DNA from: Inconstantimicrobium porci
GTDB lineage: Bacteria > Bacillota > Clostridia > Clostridiales > Clostridiaceae
Reading direction: 5' to 3'
Assembly: GCF_009696465.1 (NCBI RefSeq)
Contig: NZ_VULX01000002.1
Coordinates: 1 to 64,000 of the forward strand
Length of the DNA stretch: 64,000 nucleotides
Part shown: positions 5,402-61,503 of the stretch, one piece after another
How positions within the stretch are numbered: position 1 is the first letter of the stretch
Layout: each line of letters starts with the position of its first letter
Notes under the pieces: model-generated
The model's database searches: none
The model's input: the letters and a program-made list of their open reading frames with translations, nothing else
Told to the model about the DNA's origin: nothing
Position numbers and translations under genes: made by a program

Positions 5402-6132
5402 TTAATATAAATCTGGAAGAGATTCATCACTAATCTTTACTGTTGCAGGGAATTTATTTGAATTAACTTCTAATATGCTTGTACATGCACTTCCCTTCTC
5501 AGTAATGTTATCAGTTAACTTTATATTATATAAAATATAAACTGTATCTCCTGATGACAATCCTGCTCTAATACTAGTTGAATCTATATTAGTAAACTCC
5601 ACTACTTTTCAAGTTGTTTTGTTGATTTATTCACCTTATAAATAACAGGTTTACTGATAATTTTTCCGTTTACAACACTTATCTTAGGTTCAATTGCGCC
5701 TGTATAAGTAAAACTTGCTGCCATTGCCACTCTTGATCCTCTTGGAAAAGATAAATTATTGCTTATATCTATTACCTGATTTCCTTTATATACACCATGT
5801 ATAATATTGAAAGCATTAATAAATACAGGCGTTTTTATAGCTTCCTTTTCATACTCTCCACTTATTTTATTCTCCTCCAGAATATATTGCACTGTTGAAA
5901 GAAGCTTTTTGTTATTTACTATATCACCATCATCAACGCAGTCATCAGGAGTAGGAACTTCAATACATTTGTTTATACTAAGCTTATTTTTAAAGTACAT
6001 TCCTTGCACGATTTTGATATTGCTGCTTCCAATATCAAAGGCCACAACTTTTTTTCTAGTCTCTATTTTTGTAGAATTATTAAGCTTTTTTAGTTTTTTC
6101 AAAAAGCTTAAGTTCAGATCCTTAATATCCAT
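5402..6132 (-). pseudogene. Relic joining the N-terminus of PilM to part of another, possibly pilin-like protein; frameshifted
   Basis: The first ~90 codons give a PilM/FtsA-like actin-fold start (VVAFDIGSSNIKIVQG, the phosphate-1 motif, then VPTPDDCVDDGDIVNNKKL). After about ILEENKI the similarity to PilM stops. PilM is normally about 350 residues, so about 250 are missing. The next stretch (FPRGSRVAMAASFTYTGAI ...) looks like the globular part of a minor pseudopilin or other pilus protein. The frame stops at TAG 5602-5604, but a +1 shift at AAAAGTAGTGG continues the protein (VVEFTNIDSTSIRAGL ... to SLPDLY) down to 5402. I read it as two pilus genes fused by deletion and then frameshifted. 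It is unlikely to be functional. Confidence 0.65.
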
Positions 6133-6220
6133 CTACATCCAGCTTTTCTTATTAGCTTTGTCCTCCATTGCCCTGATCCTTTCCATATTTCCATAAGTTA
6201 CTTCCCCATTATATAGACTA

Positions 6221-6251
6221 AAGTGTAAAGTCTAAAGAGACTTTACACTTT
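6221..6251 (-). terminator. Hairpin after the second pilin gene (weak terminator or processing site)
   Basis: AAGTGTAAAGTCT and AGACTTTACACTT pair over 13 bases. On the minus strand only a short T-run follows. It sits just after the pilin at 6265-6687 and before the pilM relic, where such stems often set a high pilin level. Confidence 0.55.
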
Positions 6252-6264
6252 ATAATCTTGTTAT

Positions 6265-6687
6265 TTACTTCTTCTCGAAATCTTTTCCTTGCTTTGGATA
6301 AACTTCATTATCATTCCCATTTGCTGGTTTATCACCTGCATAAATTGTTATATTTCCACTGTTATCAAGATATACCTTAAAGTCAGCATTCTCTATTTTA
6401 GATTTTGTTCCGCCTGCATCTAGGCTGCTTGTAACATTGTATCCACCAACAGAGCTTAATCCATATGGTGTCTCTGCTGCTGGGAGTGTTACCTTTTCAT
6501 TAGCTATTGCCTGTGCTACAACAGAGTGGATATTTTTAGCATTTGCTATATCAGTTGTTACATTCGCATTATGTCTTATTGTTGCAAACTTTGGTATAGC
6601 AATGGCTGCAAGTATTGCTATAATAGCAATTACAATGATTAACTCTATAAGAGTAAATCCTTTCTTCTTTTTATTCACTTTAAACAT
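6265..6687 (-). CDS. Type IV pilin (second copy)
   Basis: A 140-residue prepilin. It has a short basic leader, then the class III signal K-K-G/F-T-L-I-E with cleavage expected after the glycine and Glu at mature position 5. The hydrophobic helix runs LIIVIAIIAILAAIAIPKF. The globular part (about 40-140) has the Gram-positive pilin pattern ending in VYPKQGKDFEKK. The first 60 residues are almost identical to the upstream pilin at 6712-7110, but the globular domains diverge, so this is a tandem duplication with diversification. The frame is intact while the pilus motor genes next to it are broken. An intact peptidase (8816-9568) could still process it. Confidence 0.93.
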   Translation of the reverse strand: MFKVNKKKKGFTLIELIIVIAIIAILAAIAIPKFATIRHNANVTTDIANAKNIHSVVAQAIANEKVTLPAAETPYGLSSVGGYNVTSSLDAGGTKSKIENADFKVYLDNSGNITIYAGDKPANGNDNEVYPKQGKDFEKK

Positions 6688-6711
6688 ATTTATCGCCCTT
6701 TAATTATACAA

Positions 6712-7110
6712 TTAATTTTTTTGATAATTTTCACCCTGTGTTGGATATACAATATCCTTATCATCATCAGTACCACCATATACTTTTATATCGCCATCAG
6801 TAACTACAACTCTAAATGCATTACCAGATACTTTTGATTTTACTTGATCAGCATCTATACTATTTTTAATTGCATCATCAGCAGATGTTAACGATGTTGT
6901 AGCACTTATTTTTTCATTTGCTATACCTTGTGCTACTATTGAGTGAATATTTTTAGCATTCGCTATATCTGTTGTGATATTAGCATTTTTTCTTATTGTT
7001 GCGAACTTTGGAATTGCTATAGCTGCTAATATGGCTATGATTGCAATTACGATGATTAACTCGATAAGAGTAAATCCTTTCTTCTTTTTGTTTACGACTT
7101 TTTTACCCAT
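6712..7110 (-). CDS. Type IV pilin (first copy)
   Basis: A 132-residue prepilin with leader MGKKVVNKKKKG, then FTLIELIIVIAIIAIL and the conserved AIPKFATIRKNAN. The globular half ends in IVYPTQGENYQKN. A strong ribosome site (GGAGGGGATAGT) precedes the ATG at 7110. It shares its N-terminal half with the next gene downstream, 24 bases away. The frame is intact. Its context is a type IV pilus locus whose assembly ATPase and platform protein are damaged, so the pilin may now be unused or assembled by machinery encoded elsewhere. Confidence 0.93.
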   Translation of the reverse strand: MGKKVVNKKKKGFTLIELIIVIAIIAILAAIAIPKFATIRKNANITTDIANAKNIHSIVAQGIANEKISATTSLTSADDAIKNSIDADQVKSKVSGNAFRVVVTDGDIKVYGGTDDDKDIVYPTQGENYQKN

Positions 7111-7137
7111 ACTATCCCCTCCAAAAATATAAATAAT

Positions 7138-7842
7138 TTAGATTTGAGTATAACTGTCGTACATCGGAAGCATTATAGAAATTATTATGAATCCTATTAC
7201 AAATCCCATTACAACTATTAAAAGTGGTTCCATTAAAGCGAAAGTCGCCTGCAGCTGTGTTTCTACTTCTTCATCATAAAAGTCAGCTGTTTTGTTTAAG
7301 ATATCGTCAAGAGATCCTGATTCTTCTCCTATCTTTGCCATAGAAGAAAGCATAGCTGGAAAAATCTCAGCTTCCTTTATTGATGAATTCAGCGTCTTAC
7401 CTACTATAACTTTTTCCCTTACACCTTCAATTGCTGTCTACGCAATCCTATTTCCTAGTGATGACGAAACTATTGGAAGTGCCTGAGCTAAAGTTATACC
7501 GCTTGATAATAAAGTTGATAAAGTTCTTGTAAATCGTGATACAATTATTTTCTGATTAAGCTTCTTTAATATAGGCAGTTTGAGCTTAAGGCTGCTTGTA
7601 AAAACTCTCCCCCGCTCTGTTTTAGTGAAATATTTTATTGCAATACCAATTCCTGCTATTGCAATTGCGATCATTATAAAGTGATTTCTAAAAGCGTTGC
7701 TCATTCCAATAAGGAACCTAGTTGACCAAGGAAGAGCTGTACCGCTTTCTTCAAAGATGCCTGTAAAAGTAGGCAATACAAATGTCATTATTACTATTCT
7801 TTTGCCATCATTGCTGATGGCTTTATACTTGAATTTACTCAT
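7138..7842 (-). pseudogene. pilC: pilC-like inner-membrane platform protein, internally deleted and with a nonsense codon
   Basis: PilC/GspF proteins are about 400 residues; here about 234 remain. The start MSKFKYKAISNDGKRI is a normal PilC N-terminus. It runs directly into VIMTFVLPTFTGIFEESG, the region around the first transmembrane helix, so roughly 150 residues are missing in frame. Translation then stops at a TAG at 7438-7440, just after IVSSSLGNRIA. The same frame continues with TAIEGVREKVIVGKTL and the well-conserved tail IGEESGSLDDIL ... LLIVVMGFVIGFIIISIMLPMYD. One nonsense mutation and one deletion therefore break an otherwise recognisable gene. The ATG at 7842 has the ribosome site GGGGGAA. 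It follows pilB by 15 bases. Confidence 0.9.
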
Positions 7843-7857
7843 AGCTTATTCCCCCTT

Positions 7858-8719
7858 CTAAATTTCTTTTAAAATCGTTATAGTTGCAAGTTTATTCATA
7901 GTTGTCACGCCATCAAGTACAAGCTTCTTACATTCGTCTCCTAAAGAACTCATACCATTTTGCACTGCTATATCTCGTATTTCATCCATAGTCTTATGTG
8001 AAGTTATAGCTTCTTTAAGCTTTCTTGTAACTTCCATCACCTCATATACGCCAGTTCTTCCTGAGTATCCTGTATTATTACAGTATCCACAGCCTTTGCC
8101 TTTGTATAAAGTTAATGGCTTGTCCTCATCAACGCCTAAAACTTGTTTCTCATAGGAAGTAGCTTCATATGCTTGTCTGCATTTAGGGCATATCTTTCTT
8201 ACAAGTCTCTGTGCTATAATTCCTGCTATTGATGTTGATACAAGATACGGCTGAATACCCATATCTACAAGTCTAACTATAGATGAAGGTGCATCATTTG
8301 TATGCAGTGTACTGAAAACAAGATGTTCTTTACCTACTTTATAATTTTTCTTATCAAGTATTCTGATAACTACCTTTTCGCCAAAAACTACAGGCAGAAT
8401 AGAAACTCTCATATCTACCTCATTATCACCAACTCTTGTAATTATTCTTCCATCCTGAGGATTAATAAACTTTTTAATTACTGATGCTTTTGAAATAAAA
8501 GGTACTATTTCAAATCCCGTTGATATCGCAACGTCATCTATAGCATAAATATTTAAAGGATCAGCCATTGCAAGCTTTATACTATTATTTTCAAAAGCAA
8601 AAGGTACAACTTCATATTTATCACAAAGATTCTGAGGTACAAGACCTATTACTTTTCTATCGAATTTTATACTATTAAGATCTACTTCTTCAATTCCAGT
8701 CTTTTTTAGCTCTAGCCAT
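7858..8719 (-). pseudogene. pilB: pilB-like type IV pilus extension ATPase, without Walker motifs
   Basis: PilB is normally about 560 residues; here about 285 are left. From ATG 8719 (ribosome site GGGAGAG) the reading MARAKK hits a stop three codons later. Shifted by one base it continues as [20 protein letters not shown], so there is a deletion with frameshift near 8700. From [14 protein letters not shown] the frame is open, but [13 protein letters not shown] jumps to [18 protein letters not shown]. Then [14 protein letters not shown] jumps to [17 protein letters not shown]. The second jump removes the Walker A P-loop, the Asp box and Walker B. The zinc-binding tetracysteine (CPKC ... CGYC) and the C-terminus are kept. 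It cannot be an active ATPase. Confidence 0.92.
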
Positions 8720-8815
8720 AAAACTCTCCCTTCAAAATATTGACGATTTTCCTAAATTATTCTACTTTATATTATACTTGGTTATTATGTGTTTTCAACC
8801 ATTTTGTTATTATTT

Positions 8816-9568
8816 TTATACAAAAAAAGACATGTACCACGAAATTACTTCTGCTCCAAATAGGAGTGATATTATAGTCCCAATTGCCAGGCTTGGACCA
8901 AATGCCATTTCATCTTTACAGCCTTTTTTTCTTCTTACAACTAATATAACTGCCGCAGTTCCTCCAATAACAAATGCAAGGAATAATCCTACTGCCAGAA
9001 GCTTTAAACCAAGAAACAAGCCACATATTAAAGCAATTTCTATATCGCCTTCGCCCATTCCTTTTGTTACCACAACTATTACTAAGATAATTAAAAAACC
9101 TACAGCTGCACCAATAACATAAGTCATTATTTTTTCTTTAAAAACTGCTGCTTCTATTACTGTAAAAACTACTCCTGCAGCCATTGCAGTTAAAGTAGTA
9201 GATTTGTAAACATACTTTGTCTTTCCATCTATCATGCCAATAACAATTAACAGAGATACAAAAATAGCATACTTAAGTAAATTCATTGTAAAACCAAATT
9301 TATAATATAAAGCTACATATAGAACAGCGTTGAGTATTTCAATTAACGGATACTGAATAGAAATCTTCTGATGACAGTATCTGCATCTTCCTCTTAAGAA
9401 TAAATAACTTAAAACAGGAACAAGATCTAATACTCCAAGCCTATGATTACAACTGCTGCAATGAGAAGGCGGAAATGCTATAGACTGTTCTGCAGGTATT
9501 CTGTAAATACATACATTTAAAAAGCTTCCTATTACTAATCCTATAATTAATACAAATAAATAATCCAT
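8816..9568 (-). CDS. pilD: Prepilin leader peptidase / N-methyltransferase
   Basis: An A24-family aspartyl protease in the membrane, cleaving prepilin leaders after glycine and methylating the new N-terminus. It is 250 residues, the full family length. It has GSFLNVCIYRIP near the N-terminus and two CxxC pairs in the cytoplasmic zinc loop (CSSC and CRYC). About seven membrane helices follow, with two catalytic aspartates in GMIDGKTK and in GEGDIE. It heads the decayed pilus locus (pilB, pilC, two pilins, pilM relic downstream on the same strand), about 96 bases before pilB. Being intact, it may still serve the pilins here or other type IV pilin-like substrates. Confidence 0.93.
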   Translation of the reverse strand: MDYLFVLIIGLVIGSFLNVCIYRIPAEQSIAFPPSHCSSCNHRLGVLDLVPVLSYLFLRGRCRYCHQKISIQYPLIEILNAVLYVALYYKFGFTMNLLKYAIFVSLLIVIGMIDGKTKYVYKSTTLTAMAAGVVFTVIEAAVFKEKIMTYVIGAAVGFLIILVIVVVTKGMGEGDIEIALICGLFLGLKLLAVGLFLAFVIGGTAAVILVVRRKKGCKDEMAFGPSLAIGTIISLLFGAEVISWYMSFFV

Positions 9569-58784: not shown

Positions 58785-59540
58785 TTATTCAGCTTCTTTT
58801 TTAGAACTCTTTATAAGATTATTTATCTCTTTCAGTTCCTGTGGAGTAAGATCACGCCACTGGCCTATCTTAAGTTTGCCTAGTTTAACATTCATTATTC
58901 TTACTCTTTCAAGCTTTGTTACAGTATATCCAAAGTACTCGCACATTCTTCTTATCTGTCTGTTTAACCCCTGTGTAAGTATTATTCTGAAAGTTCTTTT
59001 GTTTTCCTGAGTTACTCTACACTTCTTTGTCACAGTACCAAGTATAGGCACCCCATTTGACATTCCTTTGATAAATTCAGGATTTATATTCTTATTAACA
59101 GTAACTATATATTCCTTTTCGTGATTATTGCCTGCTCTTAAAATCTTGTTGACTATATCACCATCGTTAGTAAGAAATATAAGCCCCTGTGAATCCTTAT
59201 CAAGTCTGCCTATTGGAAATATTCTCTGCTTATGCTTTACAAAATCAACAATATTTCCTTTGACCTTGCTTTCAGTTGTACATGTTATTCCAACAGGTTT
59301 ATTCAGCGCAATATATACAGGTTTCTGATGATTTCTGATTACTTTTCCGCACACTTCCACAACATCACCACTGCTTACTTTTAAGCCTGTAACAGCAGTT
59401 TCTCCATTAACTTTAACTTTACCACTTTCTATAAGCTTATCTGCTTCTCTTCTTGAAGTAAATCCAGACTCACTTATATATTTGTTTAATCTTACTTCAC
59501 TGCTCTTTTCTTCATGTGTTATTGCAAATTGTTTTATCAT
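58785..59540 (-). CDS. rluF: 23S rRNA pseudouridine synthase, RluF-like
   Basis: 251 residues of the RsuA/RluB/RluE/RluF family. The S4 domain (about 17-75) has [21 protein letters not shown]. The catalytic aspartate is in [29 protein letters not shown] and the C-terminal [10 protein letters not shown] fit RluF (target U2604 in E. coli numbering), though RluB-like cannot be excluded. It lies alone, convergent with the deacetylase gene. Confidence 0.9.
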
Positions 59541-59562: not shown

Positions 59563-60573
59563 CTATTTCATAAGACCGCCGTTATTAATTCTTATCTTTA
59601 CATTGGTTTTATTTTCAGTATTCTTATCTTTCACAGTCTGTTCCATAAGTCTAAAATCAATATTTTTAAGCCTATCACCACTAACAATTATGCCTATCTC
59701 AGAATTTTCGGGAACCATTTTATTATTTATTATTTCTGTAGTAAGCTCATTTAAAACATAATCTATATCCTGATACTGATAAGTCATACCAGATATAACT
59801 CTCTTGCCCTTAGTAGTTTTGGAAGCAATATCTATTACTTTAGAATATCTATTAACTTCAAGCTTGAATGTAGATGTTCCCGAAATTAATATTGTAGTTT
59901 TAGGCTTATTATATACATAATATACACTGGAAAATGCAATAACCAAAATCAATACAAGTGCTACAATCTGTCTTGAATAATACATTATCCCTTTCTTTTC
60001 ACGTCCTGTAACTTCATAACCTATACTTGATGACTGATGCTTTACCCTTACTATTTCACCACTATGAGTGATAACTATTGCATATCTGCTGTTCTTCTTC
60101 AAAACAAGTCCAGTTATCTTATCATTCTTTTCATGTTCTACAACTACAATATCAGTAGACTCTTCTCTTCCATCCACTATAGCCAGATAGTTCTGTATAC
60201 ACTTATACTTATTATTATGTATAAGCAGGATATAAAGCATAAGATAATCCTTATATTTTTCAATAAATTTCTTAGATTCACCAGTTCTTTTTGCGAACTT
60301 TATATATGGAATTTCTCTTCTTCTTGTTACAATATCAATAAGTTCTTCATCTTCAGCCACATAACAAGCTATATTAAGCAGTACGTTTCTCGCAGAATAC
60401 TCAGGTATATTATTATACAGTTTTTTGATATCAAGATTATATAGCCTTAACTGCTTATTCAAAAATGATATTGCTTCCTTTTTCTTATCTACATCATTTT
60501 TATTTTCAACAAGCTTTATTGTTTTTTTATTTGTAAACTTCAACTTATTTCTATCAAATATTTCTTCATTCAT
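59563..60573 (-). CDS. Fusion of a SigI-like sigma region 4 with an RsgI-type membrane anti-sigma domain
   Basis: 336 residues from ATG 60573 (GAGG upstream); an earlier start would overlap the sortase gene. Residues about 32-130 match the C-terminal domain of SigI ([21 protein letters not shown]-x4-[28 protein letters not shown]). Residues about 150-190 look like the RsgI N-terminal domain ([20 protein letters not shown]). A membrane helix is at about 202-221. The outer part has [20 protein letters not shown], the RsgI core, but lacks the usual D-V-N-P-S cleavage motif just before it. There is no sigma region 2. The sortase gene lies 13 bases upstream. Confidence 0.75.
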
Positions 60574-60586
60574 AAATTTATCCTCT

Positions 60587-61177
60587 TTACTTTTGTAATT
60601 TTCCTGTAACGATAATTCTGTTCTTTGCTCCAAATGTACATGTTACCATTGTAATTGTAGCATCATCTGTTTTATTCAAAACTTCACTATGTTCAGGAGA
60701 AACAATAAAGTTTTTTTCAACTATATAAGTATAATCGCCATCCTTAGTTGATACAATCACCTTATCTCCTTTAACAAGCTTGTCAAGATCCGCAAAATAG
60801 TCAGCATAGACAAGATTTCTATGTCCTGCTACTGCAAAATTACCCTTCTCTCCTGGTTGTGCCGTATTTTCAAAATGTCCAGCAGCATATCTTAAAACAT
60901 AATCAGATGTACCTTCTGCGACACCTACCTCTACATTTATCTTTGGTATTTTTAATAATGCAATAGGTTTTGGTCCCTCATACTTCTCTGTATTTCCTGC
61001 TTTGCTGTCTTTAGCTTTATTTTTATCTGAAGACTCGTGAATTATATTATAAAATTCAGTTTTCATTTTATCCTGATCTTTAGATGATTCATATTTTGAA
61101 TACACAATATAACCAATTAGACTTATTCCTGTTACAATTAAAAGTATAGCTATAATATTAATAATTTTATCTTTCAT
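60587..61177 (-). CDS. srtD: Class D sortase
   Basis: 196 residues. An N-terminal anchor helix (about 6-26) and an extracellular sortase domain. The histidine is in FAVAGHRNLVYADYF, the cysteine in TMVTCTFGAK, and the arginine in NRIIVTGK. This is the class D arrangement. It cleaves LPxTx-type signals and attaches the protein to the wall or another pilin. No substrate gene with an LPxTG-like signal is visible nearby. It is followed 13 bases later by the sigma/anti-sigma fusion gene. Confidence 0.93.
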   Translation of the reverse strand: MKDKIINIIAILLIVTGISLIGYIVYSKYESSKDQDKMKTEFYNIIHESSDKNKAKDSKAGNTEKYEGPKPIALLKIPKINVEVGVAEGTSDYVLRYAAGHFENTAQPGEKGNFAVAGHRNLVYADYFADLDKLVKGDKVIVSTKDGDYTYIVEKNFIVSPEHSEVLNKTDDATITMVTCTFGAKNRIIVTGKLQK

Positions 61178-61329
61178 ATCTCCTCCACTTTGAAAAGTAC
61201 TCTAAATTAATTTTACATCATACATATTTTTATGTGAACTAATTTTTCAAATTAACTCCCTTTTTTTGTCATAAATATAAAATTTATGATATAATGATAT
61301 AAAGAAGTTTATTTTAAGGAGTGTTCTTT

Positions 61330-61503
61330 ATGCAGGATAAGATTATTTATGTTAATTTTAAATCAAAAGTAGCTACCAGCAGAAACAGTGTAGTAAACAA
61401 TTTTTTTAAATCAATCTTTAGCAAAATATACAACCTTTTTAAAATAAATCATTATTATCCTGATTCAAAAGTCATCTATTTAAAGCAAGACAGGATTATT
61501 TAG
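61330..61503 (+). CDS. Small basic protein (57 aa), unknown
   Basis: ATG 61330, with AAGGAG at 61317-61322. The protein is basic and has no obvious helix: it starts MQDKIIYVNFKSKVATSRNS and ends SKVIYLKQDRII. No family recognised. It stands alone between the divergent sortase gene and ispF. Confidence 0.5.
   Translation: MQDKIIYVNFKSKVATSRNSVVNNFFKSIFSKIYNLFKINHYYPDSKVIYLKQDRII

Follow-up and report, generated by a model that had tools for sequence, protein, structure and literature searches.

The analysed stretch of DNA from Inconstantimicrobium porci comprises 64,000 nucleotides (the window), and its range 59563-61177 spans two genes, one encoding a sortase and one encoding a fusion protein in which parts of a sigma factor SigI and of its anti-sigma factor RsgI are joined. 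The features of the locus are:

58785..59540, minus strand: RsuA/RluB-type pseudouridine synthase (PF00849 and S4 domains), the conserved downstream neighbour of the fusion
59563..60573, minus strand: fusion gene, 336 aa, one uninterrupted ORF with ATG at 60573 and RBS AGAGGATAAATTT
60172..60516, minus strand: SigI C-terminal domain (SigIC), residues about 20-134, by NCBIfam SigI and, in sequence and fold, PDB 8i24/6ivu/8i23
60385..60405, minus strand: degenerate minor-groove loop, residues 57-63 PEYSARN (SigI6 counterpart PKHRDSRE)
60244..60276, minus strand: equivalent of the HTH recognition helix, residues 100-110, with fewer basic contacts
59998..60120, minus strand: RsgI_N domain, residues 152-192 (PF12791 E 3.4e-8; PDB 6ivs E 9e-5 by profile)
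59908..59979, minus strand: predicted transmembrane helix, residues 199-222 (196-222 in the model), without AA tag
59872..59877, minus strand: site of the lost N-P cleavage motif, residues 233-234, here T-S
59566..59904, minus strand: outer RsgI_M / RsgI periplasmic (SEAL-like) domain, residues 224-336 (PF23750 E 2.9e-7; fold match 8t9n)
60587..61177, minus strand: sortase gene (SrtD/SrtE-like; PF04203 E 1.7e-33; 4d70 E 2e-30), 13 bases upstream of the fusion
61210..61238, minus strand: putative promoter TTCACA-17-TAAAAT before the sortase, read by eye

Domain architecture and predicted structure

The fusion gene likely starts with the ATG at 60573, which follows the RBS AGAGGATAAATTT and lies 13 bases past the sortase stop codon; a longer ORF from a TTG at 60633 is the less likely choice, this TTG being located within the sortase gene. 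The encoded chain contains, in this order, SigIC, RsgI_N, one membrane helix and the RsgI outer domain. Ten SigI models of NCBIfam match residues 4-135 (lowest E 7e-12), each with its C-terminal half only: the matches start at position 83-132 in profiles of about 220-250 positions. By these matches region 2, which recognizes the -10 element, is absent from the window protein. Both RsgI_N (residues 153-190) and RsgI_M (236-330) of the window protein exceed the Pfam cut-offs, and among 78 members of the family these domains were found in 66 and 72, respectively. A profile of the fusion family matched the solved structures of SigI6, SigI1, RsgI1-N and RsgI outer domains; the PDB chains matched by SigIC are 8i24, 6ivu and 8i23. 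An AlphaFold model of the full protein reached a mean pLDDT of 93.5 and a pTM of 0.79. In this model SigIC resembles SigI1C in 6ivu (6ivu_B, Z 11.2, 115 residues, rmsd 3.2) and SigI1/SigI6 in the open complexes 8i23 and 8i24 (Z 10.5 and 9.5), and the outer part resembles B. subtilis RsgI (8t9n, Z 12.6, 105 residues, rmsd 3.0). For the cytoplasmic part alone (residues 1-195) a pTM of 0.89 was predicted despite a weak linker near residue 145 (pLDDT near 60), and the model therefore suggests that SigIC and RsgI_N of one molecule pack together, i.e., dock in cis.

An earlier note on this DNA had proposed a single chain of SigI and RsgI parts lacking region 2 and the N-P motif, and this is borne out by the profiles and the model, by the restriction of the SigI match to the C-terminal half and by T-S at the cleavage position. 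Its conclusion that the protein is not a sigma factor also holds: judged from the absence of region 2, the fusion cannot act as a sigma factor on its own. The N-terminal part had been labelled SigI region 4. Homology to SigI stands, so the possibility raised in the same note that this part is unrelated to SigI does not apply; the homologous domain is, however, SigIC, whose sequence is not homologous to sigma region 4 (PMC10575876), and the label has to be given up.

Distribution and evolution of the fusion

Of 207 Clostridiaceae genomes, 106 encode the fusion, as a rule in a single copy. In the genus Clostridium (g3) it occurs in 65 of 68 genomes, the three genomes without it being small and 59-90% complete; named carriers include Clostridium beijerinckii, C. 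uliginosum, C. puniceum, C. chromiireducens and C. neonatale. These 106 full-length homologues with intact frames rule out a strain-specific deletion or frameshift, which the earlier note had considered in the form of a deletion joining two genes in one strain, and likewise an origin by chance or in a single strain. The fusion is old, because the homologues share only 21-43% identity with the window protein. Among 391 genomes of the class Clostridia the Clostridiaceae-type fusion was not seen outside the family. A SigIC tree places the fusions in a single clade (support 96/82, recovered in 94% of the bootstrap trees), separate from 45 ordinary SigI proteins; the alignments hold 107 rows for the 106 genes, as one gene (genome G119) occurred in two loci. 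SigIC is under purifying selection with dN/dS values of 0.04-0.33 in 25 independent pairs, and dN/dS is well below 1 in every domain and every pair of fusion genes. SigIC has also acquired new constraints, F13 being invariant and N63, L66, N67, Y114 and Y123 near-invariant within it, and G155, G172, G185, N241, N330 and G333 are invariant outside of it.

Three other SigI-RsgI fusions were found in a family (f53) whose genomes encode many SigI proteins, when the 391 genomes of the class were searched. One is a SigIC-RsgI chain that keeps the N-P motif (locus L159, 1689-2984), and the others, of 536 aa (L160, 1548-3158) and 561 aa (L161, 1554-3239), combine a complete SigI with RsgI_N, a membrane helix and an outer part rich in proline and threonine; these two also lack the K-H-R contacts described below. 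Since the f53 fusions nest inside SigI in the SigIC tree, away from the Clostridiaceae clade, fusion of SigI with RsgI has arisen more than once, which suggests a recurrent evolutionary route.

Loss of DNA contacts and of release signals

In the SigI6 open complex K170, H171, R172 and S174 are conserved minor-groove contacts, the major-groove contacts include the conserved R215, and changes such as H171Y were shown to abolish SigI6 activity (PMC10575876). Ordinary SigI proteins of Clostridiaceae (n=44) have K at position 170 in 33/44, H or Q at 171 in 37/44, T or S at 174 in 40/44 and K or R at 215 in 44/44 sequences. In the fusions position 171 is mostly Y or E, position 174 is D, I, E or T, and position 215 is basic in 21%, while the column of R172 is deleted in all 107 fusion rows versus none of the 44 SigI proteins. 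Summed over 13 contact positions, ordinary SigI proteins carry 7.5 +/- 0.9 basic residues versus 3.2 +/- 1.1 in the fusions (Mann-Whitney p 1.5e-22, a value that serves only as a guide, as the sequences share ancestry and their independence is overstated). Basic residues in the rest of the domain do not differ (13.3 versus 13.9), and the hydrophobic core positions of SigIC are retained. By these comparisons the sigma-I DNA contacts are lost from SigIC throughout the fusion family; we infer that the fusion would not recognize promoters, and a shifted mode of DNA binding is possible.

RsgI cleaves itself in its outer domain and its release is then completed by RseP and ClpXP (PMC12203970). The N-P motif is found in 0/107 fusion rows compared with 40/44 RsgI proteins neighbouring SigI in ordinary pairs, and the commonest triplet at the old site is T-T-S (49 rows). 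Two adjacent alanines (AA) in the membrane helix, which served as an approximate marker of the ClpXP tag and in RsgI depend on a helix located by a rough hydropathy window, occur in 16/106 fusions versus 35/44 RsgI proteins, and they are absent from the window protein. Cleavage of the outer domain at N-P thus would not take place in the fusions, and another self-cleavage chemistry might operate at the common T-T-S / T-S site.

Genomic neighbourhood

The sortase and fusion genes are likely co-transcribed in the window. The earlier note had described a class D sortase in an operon with the fusion; the sortase itself and its position are confirmed, and its class is arguable, as it scores below both NCBIfam cut-offs (SrtD, 119 bits against a cut-off of 140; class E, 136 bits against 160). 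The nearest PDB entry is C. perfringens SrtD (4d70, E 2e-30), an enzyme originally assigned to class D subfamily 5/class E (PMC4498605). The commonest order at the locus is ispF (divergent, 83/106), fusion, RsuA/RluB-type pseudouridine synthase and polysaccharide deacetylase, the deacetylase lying near the fusion in 48/106 cases within the DNA stretches examined. In some lineages with another upstream neighbour a protein with a PdaC domain precedes the fusion. A survey of fusions beside sortases, as the earlier note had proposed, showed a sortase directly upstream in 35 of 106 loci, in several genera, and none there in the other 71. On the fusion tree, presence of the sortase requires five changes and the basal lineages lack it, for which reason it probably joined the fusion locus later and was then lost several times. 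Locus survey and tree rule out the sortase as an obligatory partner. The sortase and deacetylase neighbours give a hint toward the envelope; ispF and the pseudouridine synthase accompany the fusion more constantly than any envelope gene does and carry no such hint, and neighbours can be uninformative.

At 61333-61503 the window contains a small basic ORF (MQDKIIYVNF...), divergent from the sortase, and a similar start of the type K-x-IYVNF lies at the same place in loci L010, L024 and L076, so that the ORF possibly encodes a conserved unannotated small protein. Elsewhere in the window a type IV pilus cluster (5602-9568) includes two similar adjoining pilin-like genes (6265-6687 and 6712-7110).

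Relation to full-length SigI

Full-length SigI was found in 112 of the 207 Clostridiaceae genomes, 52 with and 60 without the fusion. In the remaining 54 carriers, among them the source genome and its sister species, no full SigI was detected by this survey, whose list extends down to E 5e-15 with the weakest full SigI at E 4.5e-23, so that a few very divergent SigI proteins could escape. In the source genome searches down to E 0.1 found no full SigI, hence none beside the fusion, and no second RsgI_N. A split sigma factor completed by an orphan SigI region 2 was considered and rejected, as the other SigI-type matches in this genome are frames of 217-259 aa; no orphan SigI-type region 2 was found there, and its short Sigma70_r2 ORFs resemble truncated ECF genes.

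Several further arrangements were seen during the survey. Short ECF-like region-2 ORFs of the source genome (L179, 1065-1322; L180, 900-1223) look frameshifted or truncated, and one of them precedes a zinc-finger anti-sigma-like ORF. At L098 (1974-4682) the fusion gene is preceded, at a distance of 87 bases, by an ordinary sigI-rsgI pair in the same orientation. In genus g23 a second short RsgI-like protein of about 195 aa is encoded near rsgI (L117, 3528-4115; L140, 985-1569).

Proposed function and alternative explanations

The reading to which we give most weight, with confidence and doubt about evenly balanced, is that the fusion is a domesticated, probably non-transcriptional sigma/anti-sigma pair which is docked in cis and works as an intact, envelope-linked membrane protein. 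A SigI/RsgI pair would have become one chain in an ancestor within the Clostridiaceae. SigIC, with region 2 and most sigma-I DNA contacts gone, is predicted to stay docked on RsgI_N of the same molecule. Because the outer domain would no longer cleave itself at N-P, the RsgI release route through self-cleavage, RseP and ClpXP is probably switched off. An intact single-pass envelope protein would remain in the membrane, its cytoplasmic SigIC-RsgI_N unit contacting another protein, and a role in the envelope appears plausible from its neighbours. That nearly all Clostridium genomes sampled retain the fusion under strong selection also points to a new task at the envelope. More tentatively, with doubt somewhat outweighing confidence, we propose that a whole sigma/anti-sigma pair was turned into a non-transcriptional membrane protein in which the pseudo-sigma is the built-in partner of its own anti-sigma domain, the unit being core to Clostridium cell-envelope biology.

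The best rival is a modulator of RNA polymerase, in which a signal undocks SigIC from RsgI_N and SigIC then binds the beta-flap tip without reading a promoter. It takes this place because the beta-flap surface of SigI1 overlaps its RsgI-binding surface (PMC10575876), so that a domain which still docks on RsgI_N may keep flap binding, and the preserved hydrophobic core of SigIC agrees with this. With the release features (N-P, AA tag) lost, however, nothing obvious would undock SigIC, and we consider this rival unlikely. The remaining explanations fit worse. That proteolysis frees the cytoplasmic part as a membrane-tethered transcription factor, SigIC binding DNA in a winged-helix-like manner alone or with a separate region-2 protein, has a precedent in IutY, a membrane-held sigma/anti-sigma chain freed by proteolysis (PMC8999054), and the HTH fold is predicted to be kept. 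It is nevertheless improbable, given DNA contact positions that are lost or relaxed throughout the family, the missing N-P and AA signals and the lack of an orphan SigI-type region 2 in the source genome.

A sensor or partner dedicated to the sortase, controlling the SrtD-like enzyme or assembling with it, would agree with the spacing of 13 bases in the window and with the adjoining sortases in several genera. The larger number of loci without a sortase, the basal lineages among them, is best explained by the later gain and several losses, and three further sortase-domain matches are present in the source genome; the suggestion of the earlier note that the sortase is the signal or the output is accordingly weak, and a dedicated partnership has a low probability. 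The decoy or sensor for another SigI that the same note had suggested is not supported. A genuine RsgI_N domain and the 52 carriers that also have SigI speak for a decoy or anti-sigma factor acting on a separate SigI, but the 54 carriers without detectable full SigI, the source genome included, indicate that the fusion is not mainly such a decoy, and by the predicted docking its RsgI_N would already be engaged with the SigIC of the same chain, which leaves this explanation a very low probability. Loss of known functional residues could also mark a decayed remnant or a strain artefact without function. This is refuted by intact frames in 106 genomes, dN/dS well under 1 and invariant residues, and its probability is close to nil.

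Under the preferred reading of a domesticated pair the fusion is a clear example of regulatory proteins put to a different use, and it raises the question which job a sigma domain has once promoter reading is lost. Nearly every Clostridium sampled keeps a protein that is labelled as anti-sigma factor and fits neither the sigma nor the anti-sigma role, and counts of RsgI_N genes are thus unsafe evidence of SigI signalling.

Comparison with known systems

The closest known systems are the SigI-RsgI pairs of B. subtilis and C. thermocellum, whose SigIC, RsgI_N, membrane helix and outer domain are homologous to those of the fusion by profile and fold. The fusion differs from them in being one chain instead of two, in lacking region 2, in the loss of DNA contacts, N-P motif and usually the AA tag, and in being kept in genomes without SigI. 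For the upstream sortase the nearest solved relative is C. perfringens SrtD (4d70), and the accessible part of its structure paper does not mention a SigI-RsgI fusion (PMC4498605). A search of the open literature returned no paper on the Clostridium fusion, which does not prove that none exists. Fused sigma/anti-sigma chains are already known from IutY and some ECF groups, and these keep a complete sigma factor (PMC7593790, PMC8999054). IutY of Pseudomonas putida likewise combines sigma (sigma-ECF) and anti-sigma parts in one membrane protein; its families are unrelated to SigI/RsgI, and its sigma factor is still functional and is released by Prc and RseP (PMC8999054), whereas the Clostridium fusion has no complete, releasable sigma factor. 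In ECF48, ECF52 and ECF53 (e.g., SCO4117) a membrane extension on the sigma chain acts as anti-sigma factor, but unlike the Clostridium fusion these proteins have complete sigma domains and a zinc-finger anti-sigma domain; the full SigI-RsgI chains of family f53 come closer to this plan than the Clostridium fusion does. If the Clostridium fusion is indeed non-transcriptional, it would represent a new kind of use of sigma and anti-sigma parts.
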